A stretch of 64,000 nucleotides of DNA from Polytrichum commune (taxonomy: Eukaryota > Streptophyta > Polytrichopsida > Polytrichales > Polytrichaceae), in assembly GCA_950295325.1 (NCBI GenBank), contig OX485803.1, positions 51,413,554 to 51,477,553 of the forward strand, written 5' to 3'. The position numbers were made by a program, and so were the translations under genes. Under the pieces are notes generated by a model, which saw nothing but the letters and a program-made list of their open reading frames with translations, was not told where the DNA came from and did not search any database. The stretch's first letter is position 1. Every line of letters starts with the position of its first letter. Positions 41,600-63,300 of the stretch are shown here, in pieces.

Positions 41600-43200
41600 C
41601 TACCATTGCCTCATAAAAATTTGGTAGAGACTAAGGCGTTGAAATCTAAGAAAGATAGGTAATGATCATTGAGATTGTTGGAGAGCTGACCAATCTTGTC
41701 TAGATTATTCTCTAGTCAGAATAAGATATGTTATCCCTCTGGTAGAGTTATGTCAAGTAGAATTTAAAGACAACATACATCCCTGTCCGAATGGGGTCTC
41801 GATAATCACGTGGTCCTTTCTTATACATCTCTCATTGTATCCATCTTGTGCTGATAATCTATCATTCTGTGTTTATTAAGCACACCTCACTGGCTTAATA
41901 GAGTTTTCACATGTCGAATGCAGTACTAGCTTCATGTGTATCAATAATTTCGGTTTATAATTCACCTTAAAAAAACTTAAGGGTGCTAAGTAGCAACTGG
42001 TCCCCAGTGGTCTTCCTTCTTAAACATAGTATGGGTAACATCACCTGCTACCATTAATTTGGTGTGTTGTCCATTTGTGTAATTGTAGTATGCATCAGAT
42101 AGTTACTGTATTTATTGAATCTAAACTCTATCATCTCTGTTTCGACTAACTCAACAGGTCTTTAGAAACATGTAACAAGTACGAGAGTAGTCATAATTAT
42201 TCACCCTTTCTCTTGTACATGATCATACTCACAAAAAAACATCCAGTGCATGGACCTATACGGTTTCCTTTTCTGCACCAATCCGAAGAACCAAACTCTT
42301 ACAGAGTTACTTCCAATGCTCACAGGCTGGTTCCGCGTATTATTATTTATACAGGGCTTTAGTTCGTCGACTTAGCAAACCGATAATAAGTATGAGTATC
42401 TTCATACTTTATGCTGCAGTCACATATTACTGAAGCAAACCTCTCAAATGGGTACAAGAAAAGGCTTAAGGGCTGTTCCATAAGCACTTTTTCCATTTCT
42501 AGCAACCCCATCTGGTCACTACGATTACATACTTAATAATTTCTGTATTCAAATAGATTATACAGCATTATTATGTTGTAATTCCCCGGTATTAAAATTG
42601 TAACATCCCTCACAGATTCAGCGTTCATACTGAATCTGTATATCTTATCATCTTGGTTCGCTTAACTCCACAGGTTAACGAATTATGGAATCAGGATGAG
42701 TATAGTCATAATTTTTCAGCATATCTCTCATACTAATTATATTCACAGATGTTACAGATATATGGATCAATGGGGTTTCCTGCTTTTCTTTAGTAAATCA
42801 AGCTTTCATCAGGATACTCTTATTGACCATAGCATATCCTTGAATCGTTTTGTTTTGAAGGGTCTTTATTTCATCTAAACAGCTATCCAGTGAGTAAGTT
42901 CACAAAAACGCTGCAGTACCATCTTTAAAAGCAACTTCTCTCATATAGTTCTTATGGACAGACTGTGGTAGTGTTCCAGATAGATAGATAGATATGAACA
43001 CCTGCCCTTTCAAGGGGCCAGCGTGAATTGAGTGTCTGTTCGTCTCGACAATGGGCCAGAGCCCACAGGACAAAGGACCATTGTTGCAAGACTACTCTTC
43101 CCTTTCGGAAATAGACACTTTAGTAACTGAAGATAAATCCTAGTACCTCGAAAGGTGTAGGTAGGTCATATGGGTATATATTTGTGTGGGCTTTATTTTA
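41600..43200 (+). repeat. Degenerate ~490-bp tandem repeat, left of the LINE
   Basis: The block around 42110-42300 (TTCGACTAACTCAACAGGT, GAGTAGTCATAATTATTCA, CTATACGGTTTCC) recurs diverged around 42600-42790 (GGTTCGCTTAACTCCACAGGT, GAGTATAGTCATAATTTTTCA, CAATGGGGTTTCC). Related blocks appear on the other side of the LINE at about 57.95-58.2 kb. No protein-coding sequence. Confidence 0.5.
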
Positions 43201-43204
43201 GGAT

Positions 43205-43400
43205 GCCAAGACATGGTTCCAAGGTTGGTTGGAGCGTTTGTGCTACCATTTGGGCGGTCCGGGTTCGATTCCTGTTGTGTCCGTTTGAGCGTTATAATGG
43301 TATACATGACTTGGTGTTGCTGGTGATTTTATCATAGGCAGGAAAGTTTGTTTTAGAACCAACCGGCCCTATCCCTACTTCCTGAGACAAGTGTTTGTAT
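43205..43400 (+). mobile_element. tRNA-derived SINE-like sequence
   Basis: A polymerase III A-box-like stretch (TGGTTCCAAGGTTGGTTGGAGCG at 43215) is followed at 43262 by GGGTTCGATTCC, an excellent B box, at tRNA-like spacing. The T-arm pairing is partial and there is no acceptor stem, so it is not a tRNA gene. The tail runs into an AT-rich boundary, meeting the 3' end of the LINE on the opposite strand. Confidence 0.5.
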
Positions 43401-43551
43401 TGAACTAGACATGTATTATAAATATAATTATTTTGTTTATTTGTTTATTATTGTATTATTATTATTATTATTGTTTTTGTTTTTGTTTATTATTTGTTTT
43501 TTCTTGCTTTCTTCTTTATTTGTTTTTTCTTGCTTTCTTCTTTATTTGTTT

Positions 43552-46500
43552 TTATTGGTCTAGGGGGAGGGGTTGGTTATTTTCTATTTTTCGTTTGTGT
43601 AGAATAATTGATCCGGCGTGCTGAATGGCGATGGTATTGATTTCTTTGAATGTGTGTTTGATGGTAGTTTTTGATAGTTTAAGTTCTGTTTCAAGGAGTT
43701 CCATTGAGGGGGTGTGCGTTGTTCCTCTAACACCTGCTGTGATGACTATAAGTGGGTCAACTTTCCAACCTAGGTCTATGATGTCATTTATCAAGGGTTG
43801 GTACTTTTGTATTTTGTTTACAATTGTTTCTTGTGGAAATCTATCGTTACAGTAGGTAAATTCAATGAATTGTATAGTGAGGTTGTCTGATGGGTGTGAT
43901 GGTGGGTCGCTATTGTATGGGTGACCTTTTATGCATAGGATATCTGGTTTGAATCTAGCGTTGCATTGGCATCTTTGTTGTTCGCATGAACATGTTACTA
44001 GCCATGGGGGTACTGTGTTTTCTTGGGGGTTGTTGTTGAATGTTCCTGCGTTCATGAGGGTATAGCATCTTGATTCTTGTGATGATAAGATTAATTTTCT
44101 CAATTCCCATACTGCTTTGTTATGTCTTTTAACTCTTATGGCATGGATATGGTGGTGGTTGCATTTCAGTAGTACGTGAAGCCAAGTGTCCGCATCTTCG
44201 GAGTTGCATATAGAACATGTTATTGAGGGAAATCTCTCCCTACCAAAAAATAGTTGTTTCCTTGCATTACCCATGTATTGGCCGGTGCGGAATTTTAGTA
44301 TGTTAGTTTTTTGGGCGTCTATAATCATAGGGTTATGCCAAAAGTTATTGGATAGTTCATTATCAATGTCTGGGTTAGTGGTCCATTTGCTGATGTTAGG
44401 GAATTGGTTTGCCATGATTGCAATATTTTTTTCTTGGTCATGTTTGATGAGGTATGTTTGTAGGCATCTTACAGGACCTTTGTCTGGTCGTTTCATAGGA
44501 CCTGGCCATATGTCTTTTTGAAAGTAGAAAGGTGTGGTGTGTGCATGCTCGTATGGTTTTGAAGCGAAGGAATACCTTTTTCTGGCTCCTATTTTTGCAA
44601 GTTTGTCTGCTTGTTCATTTCCTTCAATGTTAATATGTGCTTTGACTTTGTAGAATGTGGTGGGTTGGGTTCGTGTTTTTAATATATCTACCATGTTTGT
44701 TAATATTGCTTTATCAGCGTGATTGTTATGTATGGTAGGATGTTTGATGTGTGTGTTCAAATTGTATACGCAGTTGAGGCAGTCTGTAAATATGTGTGCG
44801 GGTTCGTTGGGGTATTTTTTAGTTATTAGCTTGAGTGTTTTATGAATGGCCATTAATTATGCTCGGAAGCATGTTTGTAATCCTGGTAGTCTTTTTGATA
44901 TTTGCATATCTATCTTGGTTGAGTTGTATACTCCATATCCAGCTTTCTCTTTTTTCCAATGTCCATTATCTTTTTTTAAGGGGGGTATGAAGGAGCCATC
45001 GGTATAGTAGCTGTGTTGTGGTTTAAATTTGGGTGTGGTATTTGTTGTAAAGTTTGGAAGTGTTGGTGTGTTAATTGTGGTCTGGTAGATTATAGGTGGG
45101 TATATGAGTTTGTTCCATTTTTTGCATCTATTGACTGGCGTGTTGTGCGGGGTAGGTAAGGCATAGTGGATGTAGTATTGTGGGATTTGTAGGTTTTCGA
45201 GTGTTATTTTGAATGTGTTCATTTGGTGTTCAGTGCCAATATTGTGATTTTGATGGTGTATGCATAAAATTCTTATTGCAAGTGGTTCTGTTTTAGTTAT
45301 TTGTCTTTCTTGGGGGATTATTGGTTCTTCGTAAGTGATTGTGTCTGCAGCAAATTGGGTGATGATGTGTGTGTCTGCGAATGGTCCGGTATAAGGGGAG
45401 GGGTCTTGATACTAGTTTATGTTTGGTAGTACTACTATGGTGATGGTATTTGGATCATTTTTGGCTGCTAGTCTCGCCCAATGGATTGCTTGTTGGGTTG
45501 TTTCTTCGTTGTGTGGATGAGCGTAGCCTATGCCCTCCCATTTGTATTCGAAGGCGGTTCCTAGTGCTCCAAAGACTTTGTCTCTCGCATAAAGGGAGTA
45601 GAATTTTGAGATTTTCGTAGAGCACGATACTGGTGAGGAAAAATATGAGTGTGAGATATCAAAGGTGGTAATGAGAGAATCAATTATGCTTGTGGGTAGG
45701 GTGTGTAGTGTTGTTTTTGTTGAGGTGTTTTTGGGTATTTTACTTTTGTATCTTTGGTAGAGCCATACTATTTCTTTTTCGAATGTTTGTGTCTGTGGTA
45801 CTATTCCATGTGTGTTGTGTCTTGCTTTGTTGTATTGTTTCCATAGCCATTTTAGTCTGGTTGTTGATATGGAGGTAAGGTGTTTCCCGTTATCTTCATA
45901 TATGTGAGTTATCTCATTGTTTATTTGTATAGTATCTTTGTCGGTGAGAATATCTTTTTCTGGGTTACATTCTGTTATGAATATTTGCGTGAGTGGGATA
46001 TTTGTGGATGGAGGGATGAATCTTGTGTCTCTGTTTTGTTCAGGAGTGAAGTGTGTGTTAAGAATTTCCTTATAATGTTTGTGTTGTAGTATCGTGTAGT
46101 ATTCTGTTAGTAGTGTAGTGTTATGTGTGATGACTGTTGGGTGGTTAAGCGGGAATAAATTTCTTTGTGGCATCCATTTGTTGTATATAATATTGTTTTG
46201 GAGAGTCCATTGGCATAGGTATGTGTTGAATTTCTTTGTTATTTTGTATTTATCTTTTATGGTTTTTGTTTTGTGGTTTAGTGTTTTGTTAATGGTAAAT
46301 CTTATGGGATTGTTTACGATATTGTGAGGTGGGTTTGGGTGAAGATGTTGTTGTGTATTTAAGGGTTGGGGTAGGTTATCTGGTACTCTCGGGATTAGGT
46401 TTTGATTGTTTGAGATGTATCTTGGTTTTAGTGTGCGGGCGGGTAGGTGTCTTATATAAGGGTTTGGACAGTTTGGTGTGCAGCTTGGGTAACAAAACAG

Positions 46501-49500
46501 TTGTTCAGCTACTTGTAGTGTGTTTTTTTCTAGTTTGGATGGTGCTTTGTGATAAATTTTGAAGTCGTCTGGCGTCATAAGGTTTGTTCCGTTAGGGAGG
46601 GTAATGTGTTGTATTTTGTAGATATTATGAATTAATAATTTATGTAGGAGTTTGAGTGATAAATCAAGGTTGAGGTGTGGGAGTTCATTTGTAGCTTGTG
46701 TACGCCATTCTTGTTCTAGTTCTGTCATGTGTAATTGGAAATTTTCACTTGTGCTTTTGAGGTGAATGCCTCCTTCTGTTTTTAGGAGGAATAGTGTGCG
46801 TATGGTTGGTGATCTAATACAGTCATGTTGTGTTATTATTGGGATTTTTTCTGCACCGCCATATTTGGCTAATATGTGGTGTATGAGTCCTTTATATATT
46901 ATACCTAGTCTTCCTTGGTCGTTAAGTGCATTTCTTAGTTGTTCGCCAATGCATCTTAGATATGCATTTTTTTAATGAAAAGGCTTCGAGGCCAAAGAGT
47001 TCGTGGGGTAGTTGGGTTATTATATTTGCTGTACATTTTGGTAGTCCGCATATTGTTTTTTGGATTCCTATAATTTTTTTGTCTAGTTTTTTATGGTTGG
47101 GAGTGAGTATGGGACTGCGTGGAAGCTGTATGCTATGCCTGCTCTAATGAATGTGTCAACCATACTTATTTTTTGTTTGATTGTGGCAGGGCATTTGGCT
47201 AGCTGTTTACATTGGTGGTTTATTTTATTTGTGGTGATATGTGTTTGGAGTTTCCATTTTAGTGAGGGTACTAGTTGAATTCCGAGGTATGTATATGGTT
47301 CATTTTGGTGTAGAACGGGGATTGGTTGGTTTCTGTAGGATATGTTGTGGTTTTGTATTTGGGTTTTGAAATTTTCAGGGTTTATTTTGAGTTTGTTGGG
47401 ACAGCCTGTGATAGCACACTTTTGTACACCTAAGTCCATTCCGGCCCATTCGCAGAATTTATCTAGTTTGTTTAATTGTGTTTGTATTGATTGGAGGTTA
47501 TTTGTTATTGCGGCTAGGTCGTCAACATATGCTGCAGAGCTAATGGTTAGTTTTGATGTACCAAATGTGTACCCGTTTTTGCCCCTCTGTAGCCATCTGA
47601 GTAATGGTTCTAAGAATATTAGAAATAGGTATGGGCTTAAGGTGTCACCTTGGATGGTACCTCTTTGGATGGGTATTGGTTTTGTTTTGCCGAAGTGTTC
47701 TCCGGTGAATATGGTGATAGAGTCTGCGTAGATATTTCCAATTAGTGTTACTGCATCTGTTGGGTATCCAAGGTCTTTCATTATAGCTAAGAGTCTTGCA
47801 TGGTTAAGGGAGCCGAATGCATTTTTAAAGTCTATGTATAGGAGATATATATTTTGGTTTGTGAATCTAGCATCTTCTAAGGCTGCTATAAGTAGTTGTA
47901 ATTGTCTAGATGTGTTTCTTTCTGCTCTGAATCCTTCTTGACTGTCGTGTAATATTTGATGTTTTTCGCCATATGCTGATAGTATTAGTGTTAGTGTGCT
48001 AGTAAATAGTTTGTAGATTGTGTTTGCGAGTGCTATGGGCCTGTGGTTTGTTAGTAGTGATGGGTCCCTTTTTTTGTACAAAAGTATGGTTAGACTTGTT
48101 TTCCATGATGCTGGGATTTTTTTTTGTTTGTAGCAGTGTGTAAAAAAAAAATAACATTTTATGAAAGCTGTCATGCATATTTTTTAGTATCGAGTTTGGA
48201 ATTTTGTCTGGGCCTGGTGTTTTGTTATTGGATAAGTGTTTTAGACATAAGTCGTATGTTTCTTGGTCGAAATGTTTATGTAGTGGTGTTTGTGGGTCTC
48301 CTCTTGTATCTATTATAAATCCATCAAGGTCGTGCCATGGGTATTGTTTAACTCCACATGTACAATTATTTGTGTGTTCTGGTTGGTAGTAGCATGTTGG
48401 TACAGTAGGTTTGTTACTTATTGATTGTTGTATATGAATTTCGTTTGCTATGTCTTCTGGGCTAGTTAGGATGTTGTTGTTTCTGTCTTTAATGCAGTCT
48501 AACGGTGGCGTGTCTTGGTTCTTAAAAACTTTGTTATTTATTTTTTTAGGGTTTTTTTCATATAGTTGTCTGTATTTTGAGATGGCCTTTTTAACGCATT
48601 CTTGGGTGTATTTGGTTGTAATTTTTCGTGTTTGTTTGTTTGCTGTTTTGGCTATTTCTGCTATTGTTTTGATCCATTCTTGTGGATTTGTGTCTGGGTG
48701 AGGTGGTGGGGGGATGGTGATGTGGTTATGGTTTCTTAGTTCTTCTATTATTGGGTGGTTTTGCCAAAGTGGTATAGTTTTTGTAATGTAGATTGTTTTT
48801 CTTATTAGGTGGTATGTGGATAGATATTTTTTCCAATGTTTTTGTAGCTTTCTTGGTAGGAAGCCTCCCTGTTGGGTTGTGCGGTGTGTTAGTGTGGGTA
48901 GTGGGAGGCCGCTGCAAGTTTCTTGGGTTTTTTATGATATTTGTTGTATTAAATAGTCTAGTTTGGTGCAAGATGTTTGTCATTGGTCGATTGTTAATTG
49001 TTCATTCAACAATATTGTGGTGAGTTCGTTTATTTGGAGGGAATTTTCTTCGAAAAATAATATTTTGAGTTTTTCAATGTTATCTTGTGGGATGGGGTTT
49101 AGAATCCTTGGTGGTTTTTGTGTTTTTGGTTGTGTGGGGCGGGCTATGAGTGTGTTGGGTGGTATTTGTAGTATTACTGGTGAGTGGTTTGAGTTCAGGT
49201 TGTAATCATGGTTTGTGGTTGAAGTATATAGGGTGTTATTGGGTGTCTGGATATAGTATCCATCGATTAAGCTTGTTTGGGTATAGTTTTGTCCACCTTG
49301 TCTGGTAAATGTACTATTTGTTGGTATGTAGGCTAGACTTAGTGTGTCTGTGAATGTGCGCCAGTCCATGTCTTCTATTTGTGGGGGTGTTATGTCGGAT
49401 TCATTTTGTCTTCCTATAAGGGCTATGTCTCTGTTAAAGTCTCCGCATAGTATGTAGGAGTGGTTAGGGTGTGCTATGATTTGCTGAGTTATTTGTTGTT

Positions 49501-50986
49501 GGATTTTTGGGATGTATTGGATGTCATTTAAGTGGGATGGCATATACATATGTAGGATTAGCCATGGTCGTAGGGGTGCGTTTTTTATATGTATAATTTG
49601 TAAATATGGTGAGATCTCAGCTGGGGTAGGTATTTTGGTAATATTCCTGGGTATGCATATTTGTTATTTATTAGAGTGAGGAGTCCTCCTCTTGCCGGTG
49701 TATATGGCATTCTCTGTTGTATACATCGTGTTAGGGCGTGTGTGTTGTTAAAAATTAGCTTGTATTCGGGAAATAAATTTTGTATATGTTTTGTTGATTT
49801 TGTTGCGGTCAGTTTGGTTTCTTGTATGGTGATGATTGCCGGGCTTGTTGTGGTGTCTGCGATTATGTTGTGTATGTTTGGTAGGGCTGTGTTTAGGGAT
49901 GCTGCATTCCATGTGATGATGTAGGTGTTATGGTTAGTTGTTTGTATCTCTTGATTTTGTGGAAGTGGTATGTTGGGTAGTGGGGGTGGATGTGAGTATT
50001 CCAATAAGGGTTCGTAGCATTTGAGAGATTCTTTTAGTAACTTTTCAGGTAGAAATGGGAATTCGTTTTTTAGTAGTTGGAGGTTTGGTGAGTTGTTGTT
50101 TAGCTTTATAAAATCATATAGGTGTTTGTGAATGGTATTGGATGGGTTAATTAGGCTTTGGTTGGTGGTTATGAATTCTGTGTATGGATGTGTTTTTAGG
50201 ATGTGTCTTTCTGGGGGGTTTTGGAGAAGTGCTATTTTTTCAAGGAGTGTTGTTGTCCAGTCTGGGTTTGGTATGTATGTTAGTTGGTGGTCACATGTTT
50301 CTAGTAGTGGGCTTATTGTGGTAATGAGTGCATATAATATACATTGGGGTGGGTGGTGTTGGTTTTCTTGTGTGTATTTTGCGAGGTGTGGGTATTCTAT
50401 AGATGTGACCATATGGTTTGGGTGTGTTGTTTTTAAACATGTAGCAAACTGTTTTGCTAGATGTTGGTATTCTGGGTGTAGTTTTATTGTACAGGGTATA
50501 AAATATATTTTACTCCTATTTCTATGTGATGGTGGATGCGTCTTGAGTATGTTTGGCATTGGTCCCGGGTTGGTTTTGATGTCTCCACCTAGGAGTATTA
50601 GGAGTTTTATGGAGCGGTTGTTTGGGTAGTTTGATATGTTGGTGGTGTTATTTTTGTTAGTAAGGTGTTTTTGTCTTTTGATTTTTTTAATGGATATAGT
50701 GGATTTGTGATTAGTGTTATTTTGGTGTAGTGGGTTATTATGTTTTTGAGTGTTATGGGTTTTAAATGATGTTTTGAGGTACTCTATGTGTGTAGGTTGT
50801 TTTGTATTGTTTTTCTTATGTTTTTGTTGTGTGTAGGTATTATATCTTCTTCTTTTTATTAGTGAATTGTATGGTTTGTGTAATGTTTTGAGTGGTTGAT
50901 ATATTTGTGTCTTGTTTTTCTTTATTTTTCTTTTTTTCTGGCGAGGCCGGTAGGCCGAGGCTGTTTTAGTTGGTTTACTTTGTATT
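43552..50986 (-). pseudogene. LINE ORF2 polyprotein (2A-APE-RT-MT?-RNH-CCHC-RLE)
   Basis: Order of domains: 2A-like motif (50607-50560); APE endonuclease (about 49935-49170: ITWNAASL, IQETKL, LCGDFNRD, NSNHSPVIL); reverse transcriptase (about 48060-47280: RPIALANTIYKLF, LLYIDFKNAFGSL, IQGDTLSPYLF, AAYVDDLAAI, YLGIQ); a Dam-like segment (about 45740-45300); RNase H (about 45013-44590: YTDGSF, IFTDC, VKAHINIEGNEQADKLAK); a knuckle CSICNSEDADTWLHVLLKC (44217-44161); and a restriction-like endonuclease (about 43960-43740: KPDILCI, IEFTYCND, KIQKYQPL). Breaks: a one-base deletion near 49645, frameshifts near 48.98 and 48.8 kb, TGG-to-TAG at 45412-45414, and TAA at the RNase H glutamate codon (44854-44856). 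Upstream of 50559 the frame is open to a stop at 50987-50989 but has no ATG, so the true start is unknown. Confidence 0.85.
50560..50607 (-). other. 2A-like ribosome-skipping motif at the ORF2 N terminus
   Basis: The open frame reads LLILLGGDIKTNPGP directly before MPNIL. The family consensus is D(V/I)ExNPG|P after a leucine-rich helix. Here the E is K, and every other key residue is present. In known 2A peptides the ribosome releases the chain between G and P without a stop. Comparable motifs precede the APE domain in some trypanosome and invertebrate LINEs. Activity with K at this position is not established. Confidence 0.75.
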
Positions 50987-52707
50987 TATTTGGGGGTTGT
51001 GTTTTGTAGTGTTGTTTGACACTTTTTATTTGAATGGGTGGATTTGTTGGTTTTGTTGGTGTTATTATTTTTATTTTTTTTGGGGGGTTTTTTGAATATT
51101 TTAGAGTATCTATAGATACTAGTAGGTAGGTTTTATTTGTTACCGTAGCATTGGTTATCCATGCTAGTTTGTTGTGTCCATATTTCCTTCTATGGCCGAG
51201 GAACTAGCCATTTCCAATGCTTGCATGGTTGTGGCTAGTTGCCTCTTGAGTAGGGTCATTTGGGTGAATAGGGTAGATGTAGATTTTTCTACAACTTTTT
51301 CCGTGATTTGTAGTTGTTCGCTCCGTAGCTCTTCTTTCATTGTGGTGATTTCCTCCCGTATACCTACTATTTCTTTCATAATGTCCTTGTGTAGATTAAC
51401 CTTCGCGGGTATATTCTCGAGTGTCTCAATAGTGCTTGCAAGGGCAGTGTTCACATCACTGAACCCTAGCCTAGTGAGTTCGCTAGCACTAGGTGCGTTA
51501 GCCCCGTCTAGGCTCCGAGGGTGGGGGGTAAATTCTACGTATTTACCGAGTAGTTTTACCGTCTTTTTTCCAAATTTTTTGTAGACCATAGCATTAAGAC
51601 ATTGGATATTGCACGAGCCTAGGTGCTTACCATTTTTTTCGTCTCGCTTGAAGAAGAAGTTGACCACGTTTTTTGGCCCCATATGCTCTTCGATGCTTGT
51701 CTCTATTTCTTCAATGCTTTTGGCTTTGTTGAGGTTCTTGGCGATTAGAATAAGCGCGTTCTTCCGTGCAATGTCGTCCTTGGATGCAATTGTTCGATCG
51801 GCGAGCTTCCCGTCTAAAATCTCGTGGTTGTAGGTTAGTTGATTCTCTTTCATCCTATGCGCTTGTTCCGGGGAAGATGCTACGACCCATGCGAAAAGGT
51901 TTTCCTTTTTTTTTTGGACATTGGTGATTTCATACTCCGTGCCTCTTTGAAAGCTCTCTTCTATGATTTTCTCAAACATTTCGTACCACTCTTTGGATGC
52001 TAACCCCTCGCTCGTGATTTTAACCGACAAGAGGTTATTCAAGGCGAGGGAATCATATGTTTTGCATATTTTTCCCCGCTTGAATTTACCCTCGTCAAGT
52101 TTGAGAATGAAGGGGCGGAGTCCTTGAAGGAGCCCCACCCCGTCAATCTCGGGCGTTTTTAGGTGGAGTTTAATTACCCCGCTCCATTTCGTGGACTTGT
52201 GGTAGCACATTAAGGCAATAGGCTCCCCTATTATATTCCCTAGTTCTATGTCCATCTCCTTGAGCCTGGATTCTATCAAAGGCATAACCACATCCTTTTC
52301 CCACTCACTTTTACCCATCTCAAAAAATATTGCTATTTGATAGTCAAACGAGAAGCCAAACCTGTCAACCTCCACATCCGACGGGATTTGTGTAAGGTTG
52401 AAGTGTTGGCCACTCTTACCATCCTCTCTTGAGTTGGGCCATTCCTCTTGAATGACAAAAGGAAAAGAGGGGGTGGTAGATTGGCACTCTCTAGCCTCCT
52501 TTTCCCTCATCCCATTTTTTACTAGTGTAGCGATTGGAACATGGTTATCCTTTGGAAGGCCTTTGCCTCTATTCGTCCAATTCATGGCTTGGAATCCTAG
52601 CCAAAAGGGGGGGCGGGTGGAACCGGCATTCGGTTTACCTTTAGCCTTTTTTTGGGTTAGGGTAGCTTGAGAGGATGAGGTGCGTTTTTGTGTAACAAAC
52701 ATATCTA

Positions 52708-54290
52708 CAGTCTAACCTTGATAATGTCACACCATCCGTTTAACCAAAAAGAGTGATATAAACAAGGTGTGACATATTTGATAATGTCACATTTTGAAGA
52801 TTTGTGCATAATGTGATATTATTAAAAAAATAGGTAGAAAATCAAAATAAAATTACAATGTAAAAAAGAAAATAACAAATACGAGACTTCAATGTTTTTG
52901 AATGTAAAATCTAATTCAAAATTGTGAATAACAACAAGAGCACATCATAATGTGTCATTGAGATCAAGTAAAGACCTCTCACTAGAGACATAGAAGCTTC
53001 TAATGTCACATTGTTTTGTTGACGTTAAATGTGCAACACGAATTCTAATGAGTTTGTCATGGATTTTTTTCCATTCCTAACAACTCCAGAGTGTTGAAAA
53101 TCTGAGAACCTTGGCTAGCCATCAAATTCATAACATCTTTAGCATATTTTTGTGCATCGCTTAGCTTCACTACTTTAGACTCATCATTAATGCTATCAAC
53201 AATCAATGGGTCTACTTCCATGGAATCAAGAACATGTTCGCCATCTTGTACTAATTGCACAAGCTCCTCAGTAGAATATTCCACCTCAAAATCATCTTCA
53301 CCTTCCATGTTTATGTACTCCAAAGGACAAAGCTTTTCTACAAGCTTGCCTTCGACATCCAAACCCAAATTCAATGTGGCGATGAGATTGCCCAATTCCA
53401 AAGCTGCTTCCTCCATTTTGGACTTCATACGTTCATCAAAATTGTTGATATCTGCATTCCACTCTGTAGGCAATATGGCGGACTTTCTCCAACAATTTCT
53501 AATGGTTTGATCATCTAATTCATGCCATGCCGCCACACACCATAGCATAGCTTGAAATAGATCAACATTCAGTTTCCCCAAATCTTCATTTGAGTTGTTA
53601 TCAATTTGTTGCAAAGTCTAGGCAACAAGCTTGCGCTTATAGCACATTTTGAATGCTGCAATCACTCCTTGATCCAAAGGCTGAACAACTGAAGTCACAT
53701 TTGGTGGAAGGAACAAGATAGTGATATGGGAGAGTACAAAAACATTAAACCCATCTACAACTTTCTTGACCTCACCATGAATATCATGGCTTCCTGCATT
53801 ATCCATAATAATGCGAATCTTTTTGTCTTTCAATGCCATTCTTCGGTTCTCACTCTTCACCCAATGTGTAAAAACATCACCATTCATCAAGGTTGAATTG
53901 TTAGAATAATAGTGTACTGTACTATTTGGATCAAAATTCCGAGGAAAGCATTTGGGACGCGCTAATTTGTGAATGAAAACAAGCTTTAATCGCTTCTTCC
54001 CTGAGATATTAGTGCACAATCAAGTTCCAAGAATAGCACTGCATTTATCACAAGGGCGGCACATGACCCTTTCGGCTACTACAATCTATCCATCCAACCA
54101 TCACATACAATCCATCCATACTTGGTATTATCACATTTACACTACGGATTTTGGAAAAAAATAGTGACATTACCAAGGGTGATAGGGATAATAGCGAGGG
54201 AGTTTTACACTATGAAAATCGGTTTCAAACTTTTAGGTGACAATATCAAGGTGTTCTATTAACAAGGGTGACATTATCAAGGTTAGACTG
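52708..54290 (-). mobile_element. pogo/Tigger-type Tc1-mariner transposon
   Basis: Perfect 23-bp terminal inverted repeats begin CAGTCTAACCTTGATAATGT at the left, with the inverse at the right. TA target duplications lie at 52706-52707 and 54291-54292. Several subterminal copies of GATAATGTCAC-like sequence are present. At 1583 bp it is shorter than a full Tigger and has an internal deletion. It is inserted in the N-terminal part of LINE ORF1, so it is younger than the LINE. Confidence 0.95.
53057..54019 (-). pseudogene. pogo/Tigger DDE transposase, truncated
   Basis: The first part (54019-53618) has the second catalytic aspartate in IIMDNAGSH and the third in LPPNVTSVVQPLDQGVIAAFK, as in DDE_1 transposases. 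One stop codon at 53618-53620 separates it from a same-frame continuation (53614-53057: WHELDDQTIRNCWRKSAIL). That continuation is the usual Tigger C-terminal helix region, with an acidic tail. The CENP-B-like helix-turn-helix DNA-binding domain and the first catalytic Asp are missing because of an internal deletion, so it cannot make active transposase. Confidence 0.92.
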
Positions 54291-54399
54291 TATATCAGGG
54301 TCATTCTCTAGGGCTAGTAATTTTTCCTTGTATCTTTGTGAGGAGCTTGAATTCGTGACGCGTTGAGACATTCTGAGCATGACAACAATTTGTGTTAAA

Positions 54400-55450
54400 C
54401 TTCTAGTGTTTCTTTTTACATTTACATAATTTCTATCCCTCCTTGACTTATCTTGTGGGGTTGGGTGGAAGGTAAGAAATGAGGTGTGTATTTTATGACT
54501 AGGGATGCCTATGGTATATGTAGGAGAAAAATTGTGTTGATACCCGTACTTTTGAGATTTTAAGTATTTATTGGGATGGGTGATAGTTTTGGTGTTTTTG
54601 TAGTAGGAGGTTATTTGGTTTTTAGTGTGTGTCCAATTATCTATTTGAGCGGATACACTTTGTTTGTACATACTAAGTGTTTGCATGTAAGAAGGGTCTA
54701 TATTGTGAATTGAATGGGGACCGGGTTTTTGTGTGAGGTTCTTATATGAGCTATTCCAATTGGCTCTATAATATGAGGGCATACATTTGTGCATATCTAC
54801 TTTATTTATGTGTGAGTAAATGTTGTGTATTTGTAGGTTAGACATTGATTTTTCCCATAACTTTCTTGGTGAGGCCGAGTGGAGGGTGAATTTAAGGAGG
54901 GAGGTGTGTATTATTATTATTATTATTATTATTTTAGAGGTGTATATGGCATATGTGAGAGGGGGGAGATGTTGATACCCGTATCTATGAGTTTTTAGGT
55001 GTTTATTAAGATGGGTGGTAGTTCTAGTGGTTTTGTGATAAGAGATTTTGTGGTTTTTAGAGTGTGTCCAAGCATACATGTGAGAAGATAAATTTTGTTT
55101 ATTCTTACTAAGTGGTTGTATAAGGGCTATTTTGTTGTAAATGGTTTGTGGACCGAGTCTATGTATGGAATTTTTACATAAGCTATTTCGATGGTTTCTA
55201 TTGTTTTTACAAGACCGCATGTATTTGTGGCTATCAGCTCTATTTTTTGTGAAATAATGTTGTGTATTTGTAGGTAAAGCATTCGTATTTTTTTAGAGAA
55301 AAGTATTGTGAGTTTGGGTGGTGTGTTTTTGAGTATATGATTTTCCCTTGTAATCTCTAGGTCTTCTCCTCCCCACAGTTTAATTTGTGGGGCCGGGTGG
55401 AGCATGACTTTTAAGAAGGGAAGTTTAGTGTTTAGGTGTTTTAATTTTAA
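54400..55450 (-). repeat. LINE 5' leader tandem monomers
   Basis: Two full and one partial diverged units are seen. The landmark CTTGTGGGGTTGGGTGGAAGG-type block occurs near 54455, 54865 and 55390, each followed by GGGAGGTGTGTATT or an equivalent. The blocks CGTACTTTTGAGATTTTAAG / CGTATCTATGAGTTTTTAGG and ACCGGGTTTTTGTGTGAG / ACCGAGTCTATGTATGGAA also repeat. Spacing is about 410 and 520 bp. Tandem leader monomers act as promoters in some animal LINEs; that role here is inference. Confidence 0.7.
54909..54934 (+). repeat. (TTA)n microsatellite within a LINE monomer
   Basis: Eight or nine TTA units in the middle monomer only. Confidence 0.9.
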
Positions 55451-57620
55451 GATGTCATGCATTGTTACTAAGGTGCAAATTATTTCGTTATGTAGAGAGG
55501 TGTTGGAGTGAACTATTAATGCATAGCAATATTTATGTGTCATCTTATCATCATACAATGAGTTTTTAGTATTCATGTTGTAGTTAATAATGTTGTTAAT
55601 TTTGCTAATATATGTGTGTCTAGTACATAAACTGAATTTGGCTATTGAGTTGTCTAAGGGAACAATGTAATCTATGACGCATACAATATCTGGGCCTAGG
55701 CCCTCAAACAGTTGTGGGGTATTACATTGCACATTGCTTACATAATAAGCTTTAGTGCGTAGAGTAAGATAGCTGGTGCTAGTAATAGTTATGGTGAAAC
55801 CTGGCTGTGGGGTGGTTGTGACTGTGGCTAAGAGCCGTTGGGAGGAACCGTTGCTGGTGCTCCTGCTCGCATGTGCTGCCGCTCCCTGGCTTCGTTTGCC
55901 ACTGCTGCCGCTTCTGGTTCGCTTGTAGGGTGGTCTGCCGCGGTTGCCTCCGCTGCTACACGGCCGCGTCCCGTTGCTCGCCTTCCCTTTGCAGCTTTGC
56001 TTGCCTCCCAACTGCTCTCCTTCTCGCTGCTTGCCTTCCCGCTGTGCTCTGTTGCTCCTACGATTGTTGTTCTCTTCGGCGGCACACTATGTCTGCTCTT
56101 GTTTCTACCTTCTACTTCTAGTTTTCCTAGTACTACGCTATATCTCGTTCTATCTATCCTCGTATCTATGCTAATTTGTTGCCAGGGTGGGAGGGCTAAT
56201 TGCTGGAATTGGGGGGGACTAATCTGTTGCGGAGGCCAATGAGCTGGTTGTTTGTGTTGGGGGGAACTAGTCTGTAATTCTGTTCTAGTGCTTTCAAACA
56301 CTGATGTGCTCACGATCTGAGGGTGGGGGTGAGGGGGGAGTGCCGGGTGATAGCAGAGTTTGTGGGGGGGTAGCTGGGTGAGAGTTTGTTGTGGATGAGT
56401 GTGTTGGTTGGGTTTGCAGGAGTAGGCTTCTTTATACTTGGAGCAAAGTTTGGCTTGGTGGCCGTTTTTGTCATTCGGGGGTGTGTTTGTTGTCTTGTCA
56501 GTGCGCGTGTGTGTGTGTTTCTTCTGGAATTGGCGGTTGCCAGGCCATGCTTTCCATAGTTGGTCCTTGACTCTTGAAGCTTTGTGGGTGTGGGTCAGTG
56601 TTGCCGCGGTGTAATTTGTCATTGGGGTGCTGGTTTGGCTATTCCTCGGTATCCAGGGTATTTTTTTGGAGAACACAGGTGGTTCTGGTGGCTGAGTCCA
56701 CCTTTGGAGTAGCCTTAGGCTACTGTTTTGGCCATTTTTGTGTTTGGTGATGCGGCACCTATGATGTGGATCTCTGTTGGGTGGGCTGAGGGTGGCTGCA
56801 GTTCCTCCGGCCTCTTTGGTTGTGTTGGGTTGGCGGTGGCTCCATGAATCGGTGCCGAATGTGTTAGTTTTATTTTTGCTGGGGGTCTTGCGCTCGTGTT
56901 TGTTGGGTCCTTCGCAGCTGTCTTGTTGGGCAGCATGTGGCCTGTGCGGGGCATGTTCGGTGGTGTTTGTTAGGAGGTCGGTTTGGTGTAGCGCTGCTCT
57001 CCGGAGTTTCTGTGTGTGTAGGCAGGGCCTACTGTTGGCTTGATGGGGTTTCTTGGCTCGGTCGTCTCTGTCTGTGGTGTCGGTCTTCCCCTGATGTTGT
57101 GTAGGTAGGCGATGATGCTTCGTGGCCGTTTGTTTATTCTGCAATCCTGTAGGTATGGGTTTAGAGGTACCTGGATTTTCTGCAGGGTTGTTTGGTGTGT
57201 GTTTGGGCTGGTGGCCGTCTGTTGAGAGTTGTCGGTCCTTTTTGTGTAGTTGATGTTGTAGTTGTCGCGGGGGTTATTGGTGTAGTCGTGTGGTGGCTGA
57301 GGGTCTTGATCTGGTGGGTTAGTGTTTTGTACAATCATTCTAATTTGTATAGATCTAGCAACTTGAAGAGATATATGCAAAGAAGGAATTGAGATGGATT
57401 TTGGGGAGGATGTGGACTTATGTAGGTGCTGATGTTGTGTCATTTGCCTCGTTGATGCGGTGATGGGGGTTTGTCCGAGGTTGGTGGAGACGGTCTTGTG
57501 TGTGCTGATCTTGGTGTGTGTGGGCATGCCTCTCGAATGTGTGATTCTTTCAGTATGCACTTGTCCCTCAGCAGCCCAGCCTGCTCTTGTAACTTGAGTA
57601 ATGGGGTATTGTGCCAACAC
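55127..57620 (-). other. LINE leader region with long skewed open frames, function unknown
   Basis: Three long minus-strand frames overlap: 57620-56970, 57144-55828 and 56011-55127. All lie in different phases. The minus strand here is poor in T and G, so stops are rare and long frames are expected by composition. The 56011-55127 frame has a basic N terminus (KRTRSGSSGKRS) and then a less repetitive body (FEGLGPDIVCVIDYIVPLDN). It might be real protein, but no domain is recognised. The 57144 frame is rich in H, T, P and Q. The shared skew and lack of any element boundary suggest this belongs to the LINE transcript. Confidence 0.4.
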
Positions 57621-57699
57621 ACAATCCGATCTTGTTTTTTGAGATCTGAGCCAACTTCATCAGATCTGGGGAAGAGTTATGTTGGCGACAATATAGCCC

Positions 57700-59260: not shown

Positions 59261-61621
59261 TCAGTAATGTTGCTCCATATGGTTTTGTTGACCGGACTTG
59301 CGATATATTAAACCCAATTTTCCAGTACGTAGATTTACTAAGAGGACCTGTGCTCTTGTAATTTTACTGTATCCCTGTTCTTTCTTATACAATCTAAGGT
59401 AGAAATTCCTAGATTGATAGGTTAAGACAAACACTTGGGTACTGTTGGATGTTTTGCTTGGCCTAAGTCCAAGAACAAAGTGTTTTGGAGGAAGAGTTAA
59501 GACTGACCTCTCCATGTGGTCAATGACCTGCATGAGATCGAATTTAATAGCCGGAAACGACCCTAGTCGAAGGAATTTTATCAGTCGACTTTTTAATTTG
59601 TGTCGTCGAAAACCGTTTGCAGTGAGGACTTGTAGCAAAAATTCCAGTTCGTTCAAGACATCGTGAACGTTGTTTGTCAGGTACATGATTGGAAATGCCT
59701 GAGATTGGATGATGTTATAGGATTGAGACACGCTTCGATTGGACCTAAATTGTAGGAACTGGGAGCATTGGAATGGGAGGTTCCTGCGTTTATCGAATTT
59801 GTGAGTTCGAAACAGGACATCTACTTCATTTATGATGGATATTTGTAAATTCATGAAATGAGCGCTGGTTCCACGTTGTGGGAAAAAGGCGGAAAACCTG
59901 TCAATTTCCGCTTTAATTTCAACAATTCCCAACGGATATATCCAATAGGGGTTGGACGGAATTCTCTCTGCGTTCGGATCCAAGAACTGTGAAATATCTC
60001 CGTTATTCAAGATACATAAGTCGTCTATATATCGGAAGGAATGCCTGAATCTCTTCATGAGATCAGTTCGTCCGAGTTTTGCAAGCCTAGATATAAAACT
60101 TGATTCGTAGTGTAAGAAGTATAAATTACACCATAGTGGGCTACAGGAGAAGCCCATGGGGATACCGGAGATCTGTTTCCAGACGCGGTCACCAAGCGTC
60201 ACAAAACAGTGCGTACTCAACCATTGGTTGAGAAGTACCAGTCTTTCCTCATCGATTTTGACCCATAAGCTAGAGTTTGGGGGCTGCGATGCCCATTTCG
60301 CAGAAGAGGCTATCATCTTGTCCTCATCAAAACGTACCCAAAGTTTCTGTTCGGATTTAGGGTGGTCAATTCTCTTTTTCCGGTAAGCAAATGAAATGAG
60401 TTGCGAAATGGCCCCCATCAGATTGTCGCTTCCTTCTAGTGGTATGGCTTCATAGCAATGTGCTATATCGGCAACAAAAATATCATGAACTTTATCTGGC
60501 ATATTGAGTGTCAGATCCAAGACTGAATCAATAATCCATAAATTTGACGTTTTACTACCCATTAACGTACTATACGTCTGACTCCGTTTTGCAAACCACT
60601 GTTTAAGTGTAGGAAGGATCCCCTTCAAAGCCACAGTGATGAATTGCGCAATGGTAGAAAAAATAGAGTTATGGGCATTCGTGAGCCATTAATAAGCATT
60701 TTTATGTTGTTTGAATGTACCCATTAAATATGGGAGTCGTGCTATATGTATAGGGATTTCAGGAAGCAGTGAACAGATATCTTCGAATAACTCCTCCGCT
60801 TTCAACAGAGGGTCAATCCATGAATCATTTAGTCGACACGGGGCAAAGTCTTTACCCTGTAATCGCAATAAGGCTTGGGCTCGTATGTGATTGATGCAGA
60901 TTAAGCTTGCATTAGAAGCACCTTTATCTAACCCAGCTACGAACAGGAATTGGTGTATCCATTGAAGCTCATCTGTGGCTGACTGGATTTTTCTCCAAGA
61001 TGGTTGTGAGTATTTGAACCCTCCTTCATTCCTGGATGCTTTTTCTTTTAGAATTGCCCATGTACTATTTCTGATCCATAGAACTTGATCAGAGGGGTCA
61101 ATGTGTAGGATGAGACAAACATGTTGCCAGACATCAAGAACTGTTTCAACGACTTCATGTAATAGGGTTTGTCTCAAGGGAATGTGGTTGAGCCCGCTGT
61201 TGAAATTACTTCTTAAAGTACTATCACGGATGATGTCATTATCCATTGTGCGAACATGACTCTCCATTATCGATGGGATTCGACGATCATGGCTTGTCCC
61301 GGCAGTCTTTGGGTCCAAATATTTAGAGAATATTTTTTGTAAGTTACAGGGCCATGGTGAAATAAACGTACCCTCATTAAAAGAAAAATCCCGAAAGACC
61401 TTTGCTGGTTTGTAGACCATAGACCGAAACTGGTCGTGGTATTTCCAGCCAAATGTTATACATTCGAGATATGGTATGAGATCCTCATATCCTTGTCTCT
61501 TTAAAGCCTCCTCACACGTAAATCGGATGTTAATCCACTCCATCGCTCTATTAGGGTATAGAGAATGAACAAACCCTATTCGTTTCAAGTTAGATTCCTT
61601 ACTCAGCGTGTTTCTTCCCAA
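59261..61621 (-). pseudogene. Penelope/rvt-type reverse transcriptase, copy 1
   Basis: One continuous frame of about 787 codons broken by a single TAA at 60689-60691. Fingers: LPYLMGTFKQHKNAY, stop, WLTNAHNSIFS (motif 1, KxHK type). Palm: IFVADIAHCYEAIPL (motif A), GIPMGFSCSPLWCNLYFLHYE shortened to its core GIPMGFSCSPLW (motif B), FRYIDDLCIL (motif C), then AHFMNLQIS (motif D). The C terminus has VFVLTYQSR and LIYRKSG, like the thumb-to-linker part of Penelope-like proteins. The N-terminal extension has GLNHIPLRQT. No GIY-YIG endonuclease is seen on either side, so it is an endonuclease-minus or truncated Penelope relative, or a cellular rvt gene. The single TAA at a probable Arg codon implies recent loss. 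No ATG is seen at the 5' end. Confidence 0.8.
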
Positions 61622-61701
61622 AACATCATGGATAATCCTTCGTGAAATGGCAGAGGTAGGAATAAGATCTGTTACATACCAGAGTCAATGTGTCAGATTT
61701 T

Positions 61702-62301
61702 TCAATCCCAGTTAATCGTTCTGCCAAAAACTGGAGAAGAGATAGTGGACGTATTAGATCCGCTTCTTGAGCCCTCCGTCCTATTCTGGATCTCATTATT
61801 GTGAGAATGAAACTCCCTGGGATGATCATGAACATATGTTGAATTTCGTGCTCCTGTATTAGCATGTTGCTGAAGAATGGATGAACCACCCGCTCCAAAG
61901 CGTCGGTGATTATTGTTGTTGTATGCCCCGCGACCTCTTCCTGTCCCTTGGTTAGCCGGTCTGTGGTATGATGAGAAGCCACGTCCACGGCCAGGGTTAT
62001 AAGTGCGCTTGTATGGTGTGCTCCCTGAGTCCTTGTTAAGATCAGGCAACGCCCTTTTGAAGGACAAATTAGTGGATTGTCCAATGCCTGCATTTGAGCT
62101 CGGACGAATCATTTGTTCGATTTTGCGGATACCTGCCCCTTCCCCATATTTTGATAGCAATTTGCTATTGGAATTAGTAGCATACTCCAGAGCCCCTTCT
62201 ACCATCATGTTTCGGATGTATGCGAATGTAACGGATGCTTTGACAGCGTCTCTCGCCGCAGTCTCCAGCCATCCGACAACAGCAACGTATTTGGAACACA
62301 A
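61702..62301 (-). pseudogene. RG-rich companion frame of the RT element, 5'-truncated
   Basis: An open frame of 200 codons without an ATG, beginning just after the junction at about 62306. The first ~80 residues look globular (GWLETAARDAVKASVTFAY). The rest is rich in R, G, N, S and Y (YNPGRGRGFSSYHRPA, GTGRGRGAYNNNN), typical of RNA-binding RGG proteins. It ends 80 bp before the RT frame, in a different phase. A gag-like RNA-binding ORF1 for the same element is plausible. The missing N terminus suggests a 5'-truncated insertion. Confidence 0.5.
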
Positions 62302-62309
62302 CTCCTAAT

Positions 62310-63300
62310 GAGGAAATAAATTTCATTGCCTTATAGAGTGTGTTTTGTCCTAATACATGTATAGATTCAAAACATCTAGTAATATCTATTACATAGATAT
62401 TATTGATCATTGGTGGTATATTTAGGGTAAAGTCAGTTATTGAATCAATGATCCAATACAATGACGTATCTATATTTAAGAATCTTTTATAGCCTTCAAC
62501 ATTTGTGTGGGCCCATTCCTTAACTTCTTCTAGAATTGACATAGTAGAATTTATTAAAAGAATGTTGATATTGACATAAATGGATCCAAAAGTATTAGAT
62601 ATCCATATATATGATTTTTTATGGAACTTATAGTTTGTTATTGTGTAAGGTAATTTTTCCTTATATAAGAATAGTTCAAGTATAATTGAAAATAGATATT
62701 ATATTATTTTACTACTAATTTCTTCAATGGATCCTCAAATGTTATTAGTGCAACATGGTTAGAAATCGGATCCATTTAATCTAGCAAGGATTTAGAATCC
62801 TATATGTGAGATACATATAAAACATGAATTATTGGTTGTTTTATCAAGGCTATAAACAAATACATGTTTGAATATCCACGATAATTCATCATCCATAAAT
62901 TTGTTAGAGAATAAGTAGGATTTAAAATATTGAACCCATACAAATTAATTTTCAAGACTGATACAAGGATTTCCTTACATCTTGTGCACACCATCTTGGT
63001 GTCACTATTGATCTTCAAACATCCTCATATCTGTAAACCTTATACACTTGAAAAATCTATCAACTACCATTTGAATAGTTTCTTGTACATTAGTATTTTT
63101 AAAGGAATATAATTTAGTTCTAATGTAATAATTTTCCTAAGTCCAAGATGATGAATAATATTGGTATCTATGGTACTTACATGTGTCATTGGATTATCCA
63201 AATTATTATGTATAATTTTATGATCAATAAATTTATGAAATCTCTTGGCCTTATTACATATACATTCATAAGACCCATTGATAAACAATCATATATTATT
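62310..63300 (-). pseudogene. Penelope/rvt-type reverse transcriptase, copy 2, AT-rich and truncated
   Basis: Decayed relative of copy 1 on the same strand. Matching pieces in order: THVSTIDTNII...LNYIPLK (about 63200-63110) against SHVRTMDNDII...LNHIPLR; MDDELSWIFKHVFVYSLDK (about 62890-62830) against TDELQWIHQFLFVAGLDK; KLPYTITNYKFHKKSYIWIS (about 62670-62610) against RLPYLMGTFKQHKNAY-WLT; and LYWIIDSITDFTLNIPP, NIYVIDITRCFESI (62460-62370) against motif A of copy 1. It stops abruptly at about 62310, before motif B. It has several stops and shifts, and is far more AT-rich than copy 1. Confidence 0.75.

Follow-up and report, generated by a model that had tools for sequence, protein, structure and literature searches.

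A conserved 2A-like sequence ahead of ORF2 in a non-LTR retrotransposon family of the moss Polytrichum commune, a candidate ribosome-skipping element in a plant

Introduction

A sequence resembling the 2A/StopGo ribosome-skipping peptides lies ahead of ORF2 in a non-LTR retrotransposon of the moss Polytrichum commune, and this locus raises the question of whether a plant element of this kind severs its second protein from an upstream translation product by skipping. Non-LTR retrotransposons bearing a 2A have reportedly been described from trypanosomes (L1Tc) and from sea urchin and other animals, the accounts being those of Heras in 2006 and Odon in 2013. Here, we examined the motif in the window, i.e., the whole stretch of 64,000 nucleotides that was analyzed, and in related copies from the assembly containing it (407.8 Mb, 64 contigs).

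Results

On the minus strand of the window, LLILLGGDIKTNPGP was found at 50604-50560, with the core DIKTNPGP at 50583-50560, and the stop-to-stop frame holding the motif spans 49585-50985(-). The degenerate DNA pattern GAYRTNNNNNNNAAYCCNGGNCC matched the window only here, and 100 dinucleotide shuffles produced no match. Thus, the 2A-like motif proposed in the initial annotation was indeed present, and the E-to-K change named there was its sole departure from D(V/I)ExNPGP; the family carries this core octapeptide of 2A/StopGo elements, from which the window copy deviates by the K. The same annotation had placed the motif right before the APE domain, which proved too close: in L013, a relative with an open frame of 2,919 aa, the APE match covers residues 801-965, with NPGP at residue 582, so that ~215 residues separate the two. 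It had also stated that the frame upstream contains no ATG. This held for the window copy, in which the first M directly follows NPGP, and the short ATG-less region is in part a product of decay, since in relatives the frame is sometimes open back into ORF1. Counted from the first base of the ORF1 stop codon, the 2A frame of the window copy meets stops at 31 and 178 nt. This copy is dead, with its ORF1 cut by a DNA transposon, its spacer frame broken, and its ORF2 split over several frames (Table 1).

The nested DNA transposon (52703-54295, in the 5' part of ORF1) has terminal inverted repeats of 28 nt and encodes part of a DDE_1 transposase (2.5e-22). Upstream of ORF1, a G-poor stretch at 54246-57656 (minus strand) contains long overlapping open frames and, by eye, a repeat of ~100 residues, and it is possibly the 5' leader of the element. 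At 59261-62698 (minus strand), open frames apart from these match RVT_1 weakly (0.00086) and are perhaps another retroelement.

Table 1. Features of the retrotransposon copy in the window
Feature	Position	Strand	Remarks
ORF1, 3' part	51164..52711	-	515 aa; no Pfam match; 5' end cut off by the nested DNA transposon
Small hairpin AGTATC-TATA-GATACT	51105..51120	-	~46 nt past the ORF1 stop; conserved among relatives
Spacer, ORF1 stop to 2A	50620..51163	-	Broken in the window copy; in relatives open, fast-evolving and probably a translated leader
Conserved DNA island (CTCGGCCTACCGGCCTCGCC type) in the spacer	50940..50961	-	Reading frame differs by lineage
2A-like sequence NRSIKLLILLGGDIKTNPGP	50560..50619	-	Skip predicted between final G and P; family conservation, core pN/pS
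ORF2, N-terminal part	49585..50559	-	Begins P, then MPNIL; ends in first APE-like stretch (by eye, no Pfam match), then frameshift
Remainder of APE endonuclease	48980..49663	-	PF14529, 26.9 bits, just below the cut-off of 27.4
Reverse transcriptase	47083..48183	-	PF00078, 7e-30
ORF2 part with PCIF1-like domain	45412..46971	-	PF12237, 1.8e-11
RNase H, then C-terminal domain	43552..44856	-	PF00075, 3e-06; predicted fold of the L013 counterpart resembles the R2 restriction-like endonuclease

Related copies were searched for with a 271-residue query reaching from the 2A into the APE domain, which yielded 142 scored copies from 927 candidates, and the 2A region was read in 116 copies (L001-L015, L017, and L018-L117; L016, a longer cut of L004, was omitted). 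Since the start of 139 of the 142 matches falls within query residues 1-9, possibly because of the query itself, a second sample was drawn by the reverse transcriptase (141 scored copies from 1,790 candidates), and 20 of its copies outside the 2A list were taken, with 500 bases each at the expected distance. The ORF2 start was kept in 12 of the 20, and NPGP stood directly before it in 12 of 12; in L152 and L155, NPGP is out of the ORF2 frame through an indel. L153 matched ORF2 only from residue 85 onward, and seven of the 20 gave no match to the first 110 ORF2 residues in the 500 bases examined, one of which, L145, has the ORF1 tail and the spacer. The assembly also contains one AUX/IAA locus (two neighboring matches) and 58 chlorophyll a/b-binding matches, 14 of them clustered at G000:C5:1751760-1846160 with the same E-value and on both strands. 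These two gene families agree with a plant host, and more narrowly with a land plant.

The initial annotation had suggested aligning other family members to see if GD(I/V)xxNPGP is conserved and had named a lack of NPGP in other copies as a refutation. Conservation was found instead: among the 116 copies, N at p16, P at p17, G at p18, and P at p19 occur in 114, 110, 112, and 115, respectively, preceded by G at p11 (114), D at p12 (115), and I at p13 (115). The p14 position is E in 99 copies, K in 13, H in 3, and a stop in 1, p15 is T (49), P (30), S (22), or L (15), and M directly follows the NPGP position in 116/116. The exact core D(V/I)ExNPGP is present in 86 of the 116, and 14 more are otherwise intact with K (11) or H (3) at p14; other departures, such as NLGP, NPRP, and similar, look like single-copy decay. 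Ahead of the core there is a leucine-rich hydrophobic run with hexapeptides of the LLLLSG type. K at p14 was found in the window copy, its 98% relative L002, L004, L018, L034, L090, and L109, and also in the L014 lineage (L014, L015, L069, L070, L074, and L095). The identity between L014 and L015 is 99.63% over 9.9 kb, and L014 has an open frame of 2,924 aa, which together indicate that a K-bearing lineage moved recently.

Constraint was estimated as pN/pS from within-subfamily pairs, using Nei-Gojobori counts on MAFFT alignments of pairs that are 2-35% apart downstream. Four subfamilies of 49, 33, 13, and 6 copies provided 1126, 524, 76, and 14 pairs, respectively, which are non-independent; ten smaller groups fell outside the test. 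Following the same order, pN/pS was 0.13, 0.08, 0.15, and 0.00 for the core and 0.16, 0.18, 0.13, and 0.19 for downstream ORF2, and it was 0.24, 0.57, 0.48, and 0.11 for the 11 residues ahead of the GDI core and 0.45, 0.70, 0.58, and 1.06 for the 100 nt before those 11 residues. Beyond 100 nt upstream, the values were 0.71-0.97 (0.71-0.92 in the three large subfamilies), with the other two frames of a similar order, and the far-upstream spacer was therefore regarded as close to neutral. These data indicated that the core is strongly constrained at the protein level, that the constrained block ends roughly where a functional 2A would, and that the motif has a conserved upstream context of the extent seen in 2A/StopGo elements (~15-30 residues).

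The spacer between ORF1 and the 2A proved to be open in one frame. Its last 100 codons are stop-free in the 2A frame in 86 of 116 copies versus 2 and 2 in the other frames, and 300 codons are stop-free in 32 copies versus 0 and 0; within the last 100 nt upstream, stops per 100 codons amount to 0.44 in the 2A frame versus 7.84 and 6.72. For 30 representatives that are <75% alike, 23 were open over 100 codons in the 2A frame versus 0 and 0, and a shuffle keeping codon-position composition predicted 12.8 stops per 300 codons versus 6.2 observed, decayed copies included. Over 300 codons, 2A-frame depletion was not seen in subfamily 3 (6 copies; 19.0 stops versus 18.7 and 16.5) or in subfamily 7 (2 copies; 13.0 versus 8.5 and 13.5). 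Since the 2A frame is kept free of stops and the other frames are not, the spacer is very probably translated, which argues, though indirectly, against the possibility, raised by the initial annotation as a refutation, that the region upstream is never translated. Judged by this depletion, which is absent in subfamilies 3 and 7, the motif would lie within a translated frame between two products, as expected of a 2A/StopGo element.

Gap lengths between related spacers showed no enrichment for multiples of three (102/301), and a frame constraint visible in gap lengths was thus unsupported. We took this result to reflect compensated frameshifts, since a conserved island in the spacer is read as SAYRPR or as RPTGLA depending on the lineage. 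This CTCGGCCTACCGGCCTCGCC island was detected by a degenerate pattern in 69 of 117 copies versus 0 in one mononucleotide shuffle per copy, and in uninterrupted 2A frames it was read 39 times in the SAYRPR frame, 17 times as RPTGLA, and twice as GLPASP. Frame switches may be tolerated provided that the spacer frame stays open. The island is GC-rich within the G-poor spacer and sometimes occurs twice in one spacer.

The end of ORF1 was sought by tblastn in 36 copies, being found in 19 and not found in 17, and the common ORF1 tail was identified by pattern in 19 rows that represent 18 distinct copies, the window copy being counted twice (as L001 and as the window). The 2A frame runs uninterrupted to the common tail in L010, L011, L062, L065, L112, and L114, the last two of which are close relatives; in 6/6 it is the -1 frame, opening 22 nt before the ORF1 stop. 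The other 13 of the 19 rows are interrupted, with 5 in -1, 7 in +1 (window copy included), and 1 in frame. L013, which has a different ORF1 tail, likewise has its spacer in -1, opening 88 nt ahead of the ORF1 stop. When all tails were considered, frames uninterrupted to the ORF1 end were -1 in seven copies, a stop-start overlap in one, and in frame in one. In L014, an AUG in the 2A frame lies 5 nt before the ORF1 stop, in a stop-start overlap, and L015 has the same AUG, its frame being broken further on. In L097, ORF1 continues in frame through two 2As into ORF2, stop-free over the stretch read, with a TAA further on.

Past the ORF1 stop, the first in-frame AUG lies at 488 nt in L010, 509 nt in L011, 521 nt in L062, 314 nt in L065, 125 nt in L112, and 107 nt in L013. 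Given these distances, reinitiation at a nearby AUG was rejected as the general way past the ORF1 stop and was retained for the L014 lineage, in which the AUG is at -5. No canonical -1 slippery heptamer was seen by eye in the 22-nt overlap. In the common tails and in L013, the codon before the ORF1 stop is AAC, preceded by A, a context that would allow a slip to AAA. When conserved RNA structure past the ORF1 stop was sought with RNAalifold in 13 of the 16 junctions, excluding three whose ORF1 tails differ, a single 5-bp hairpin (-2.8 kcal/mol) emerged, and there was no Rfam match at gathering thresholds in 43000-53500. The arms of the AGTATC-TATA-GATACT hairpin are altered yet still pairing in some relatives.

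Tandem 2As were present within 300 codons upstream in 3 of 116 copies. L017 has GDIQLNPGP, GDIELNPGP, and GDIHPNPGP, all in one frame, while L097 and L117 each have two, GDIQTNPGP followed by GDIHPNPGP. The residue next to the interior 2As is L or Q and never M, indicating that the motif is more than a start-codon context.

Downstream of the 2A, a single frame in both L013 and L014 encodes the reverse transcriptase, the PCIF1-like domain, and RNase H, the last with PF00075 matches of 1.5e-14 and 3.6e-12, respectively. An APE lies N-terminal to the reverse transcriptase in L013 (PF03372, 25.5 bits with a cut-off of 24.5, before RVT_1), and L014 gave no APE match at E 0.01. Since sequence searches for a restriction-like endonuclease (RLE) found nothing relevant, i.e., no R2 or endonuclease match in PDB or Pfam, the C-terminal 230 residues of L013 were examined through a fold predicted from six family sequences (mean pLDDT 68.7). 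Compared with PDB, this model had R2 proteins as its top seven matches (best E 1.2e-5; TM-score 0.45-0.51 by query; rmsd 5.8-8.4), and the predicted fold points to an RLE C-terminal to the reverse transcriptase. Going by these domain matches and the model, the element encodes both an APE and a putative R2-like endonuclease.

The PCIF1-like domain lies between the reverse transcriptase and RNase H and was matched by PF12237 at 45412-46071 (minus strand) in the window, at L013:6979-7671 (2.9e-12), and at L014:6998-7690 (1.3e-10); its best PDB profile match was PCIF1 (6irv, E 0.079). PCIF1 is a cap-adenosine methyltransferase. The moss domain has HPHN or HPPN at what we take to be the place of the NPPF catalytic motif, and thus it is probably not an active methyltransferase.

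Discussion

We consider it likely, with a probability of roughly 0.78, that the motif family represents working 2A/StopGo elements in a land-plant non-LTR retrotransposon organized as ORF1, recoding, disposable spacer, 2A, and ORF2. In the mechanism that we propose from sequence comparison, ribosomes finishing ORF1 would move into the frame of the spacer close to the ORF1 stop codon; most lineages would use a -1 frameshift for this, and one a stop-restart at an overlapping AUG. The ribosomes would next read through the long spacer, in which the encoded residues are of little consequence. At the leucine-rich GDIExNPGP, the upstream chain would be released at the glycine, and from the proline on a free ORF2 protein would be made, comprising APE, RT, PCIF1-like domain, RNase H, and RLE. 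A more specific version, in which recoding is double, with a -1 frameshift leading into a readable but unconstrained spacer and one to three 2As, including those with K at p14 in the recently active lineage, discarding the spacer and releasing ORF2, is put forward tentatively, at slightly less than even odds.

The motif could be explained without skipping. ORF2 might start at the ATG after NPGP, the 2A-like stretch being an untranslated leader kept as start context or by descent, and both the invariant M and the missing upstream ATG of the window copy would suit such a start. It is very improbable in view of the codon-level constraint on the core and the stop depletion in the 2A frame only, and also because interior 2As continue with L or Q and M is changed to I in L146; a pure start-codon context was rejected on the constraint and the interior 2As. 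We regard as improbable, too, that the motif is a conserved N-terminal segment of ORF2 with another role, e.g., a signal-like hydrophobic segment. The leucine-rich run would be compatible with this role, and certain sea-urchin 2As double as signal sequences according to passages of PMC4981915, whereas the constraint fades within about 30-40 residues upstream and is strongest at the residues required by StopGo (D, I, N, P, G, and P).

A different kind of alternative accepts a working 2A and concerns the way into the spacer, which ribosomes might reach through an internal ribosome entry site or at non-AUG codons rather than by recoding at the ORF1 stop. The distance of the first in-frame AUG in the six -1-type copies (107-521 nt), the lack of a canonical slippery heptamer, and the conserved hairpin and DNA island in the spacer would all agree with entry of this kind. 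It does not readily account for a frame whose opening lies 22 nt ahead of the ORF1 stop and which is -1 in all six uninterrupted common-tail copies, or for the AUG overlapping the ORF1 stop in the L014 lineage; we thus judge it unlikely, though a serious contender. If the 2A does skip, the family would supply ~100 natural 2A variants, some with K or H at p14 and some in tandem. It would also be an unusual instance in which selection preserves a long open frame but lets the encoded amino acids drift, and it would bear on how two-ORF LINEs make their second protein.

In the open-licence literature, 2As in LINEs were found only from trypanosomes and animals, with Odon 2013 and Rao 2025, the sources likeliest to list a plant case, outside that search; provisionally, the moss motif would be the first 2A/StopGo element known to occur naturally in a plant. 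According to parts of PMC12846837, a survey of RNA viruses with the pattern (D/G/C/N)(V/I)ExNPGP, p14 is almost exclusively E, H is rare but active, and Q is partly active (26-56%); K is not among the functional variants in its sections on p14, and six cases in viruses labelled plant viruses are attributed to host misclassification. The moss motif is like the L-rich class of that survey (motifs 2/6) in its core D(V/I)ExNPGP, G at p11, D at p12, and leucine-rich hexapeptide, and is unlike viral StopGo/2A in belonging to a retrotransposon in a plant nucleus and in having K at p14 in some copies. So far as the titles of those accounts and passages of later papers show, the 2A LINEs of trypanosomes (L1Tc) and animals also have a 2A-like sequence in frame with an APE/RT polyprotein; the moss element differs in its plant host, APE plus R2-like RLE, occasional 2As in tandem, a young lineage with K at p14, and a long, apparently translated, unconstrained spacer after a separate ORF1.

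APE and RLE in one element are the mark of Dualen/RandI, which has RNase H too (passages of PMC4640811), and RandI families were placed under green algae in a 2013 table (PMC3747384). The moss element has APE, RNase H, and a predicted RLE and is likened to Dualen/RandI by domains rather than by an RT tree; its PCIF1-like domain and 2A are unmentioned in the excerpts describing those elements, and a listing-level search of the bryophyte literature found no RandI. Finally, as in SART1 and LINE-1, described in portions of PMC5972666, translation of ORF2 in the moss element appears to be coupled to termination of ORF1. In contrast to SART1 and LINE-1, which restart at ORF2 itself, the moss element would apparently have its long spacer translated before ORF2 and severed from it by the 2A.
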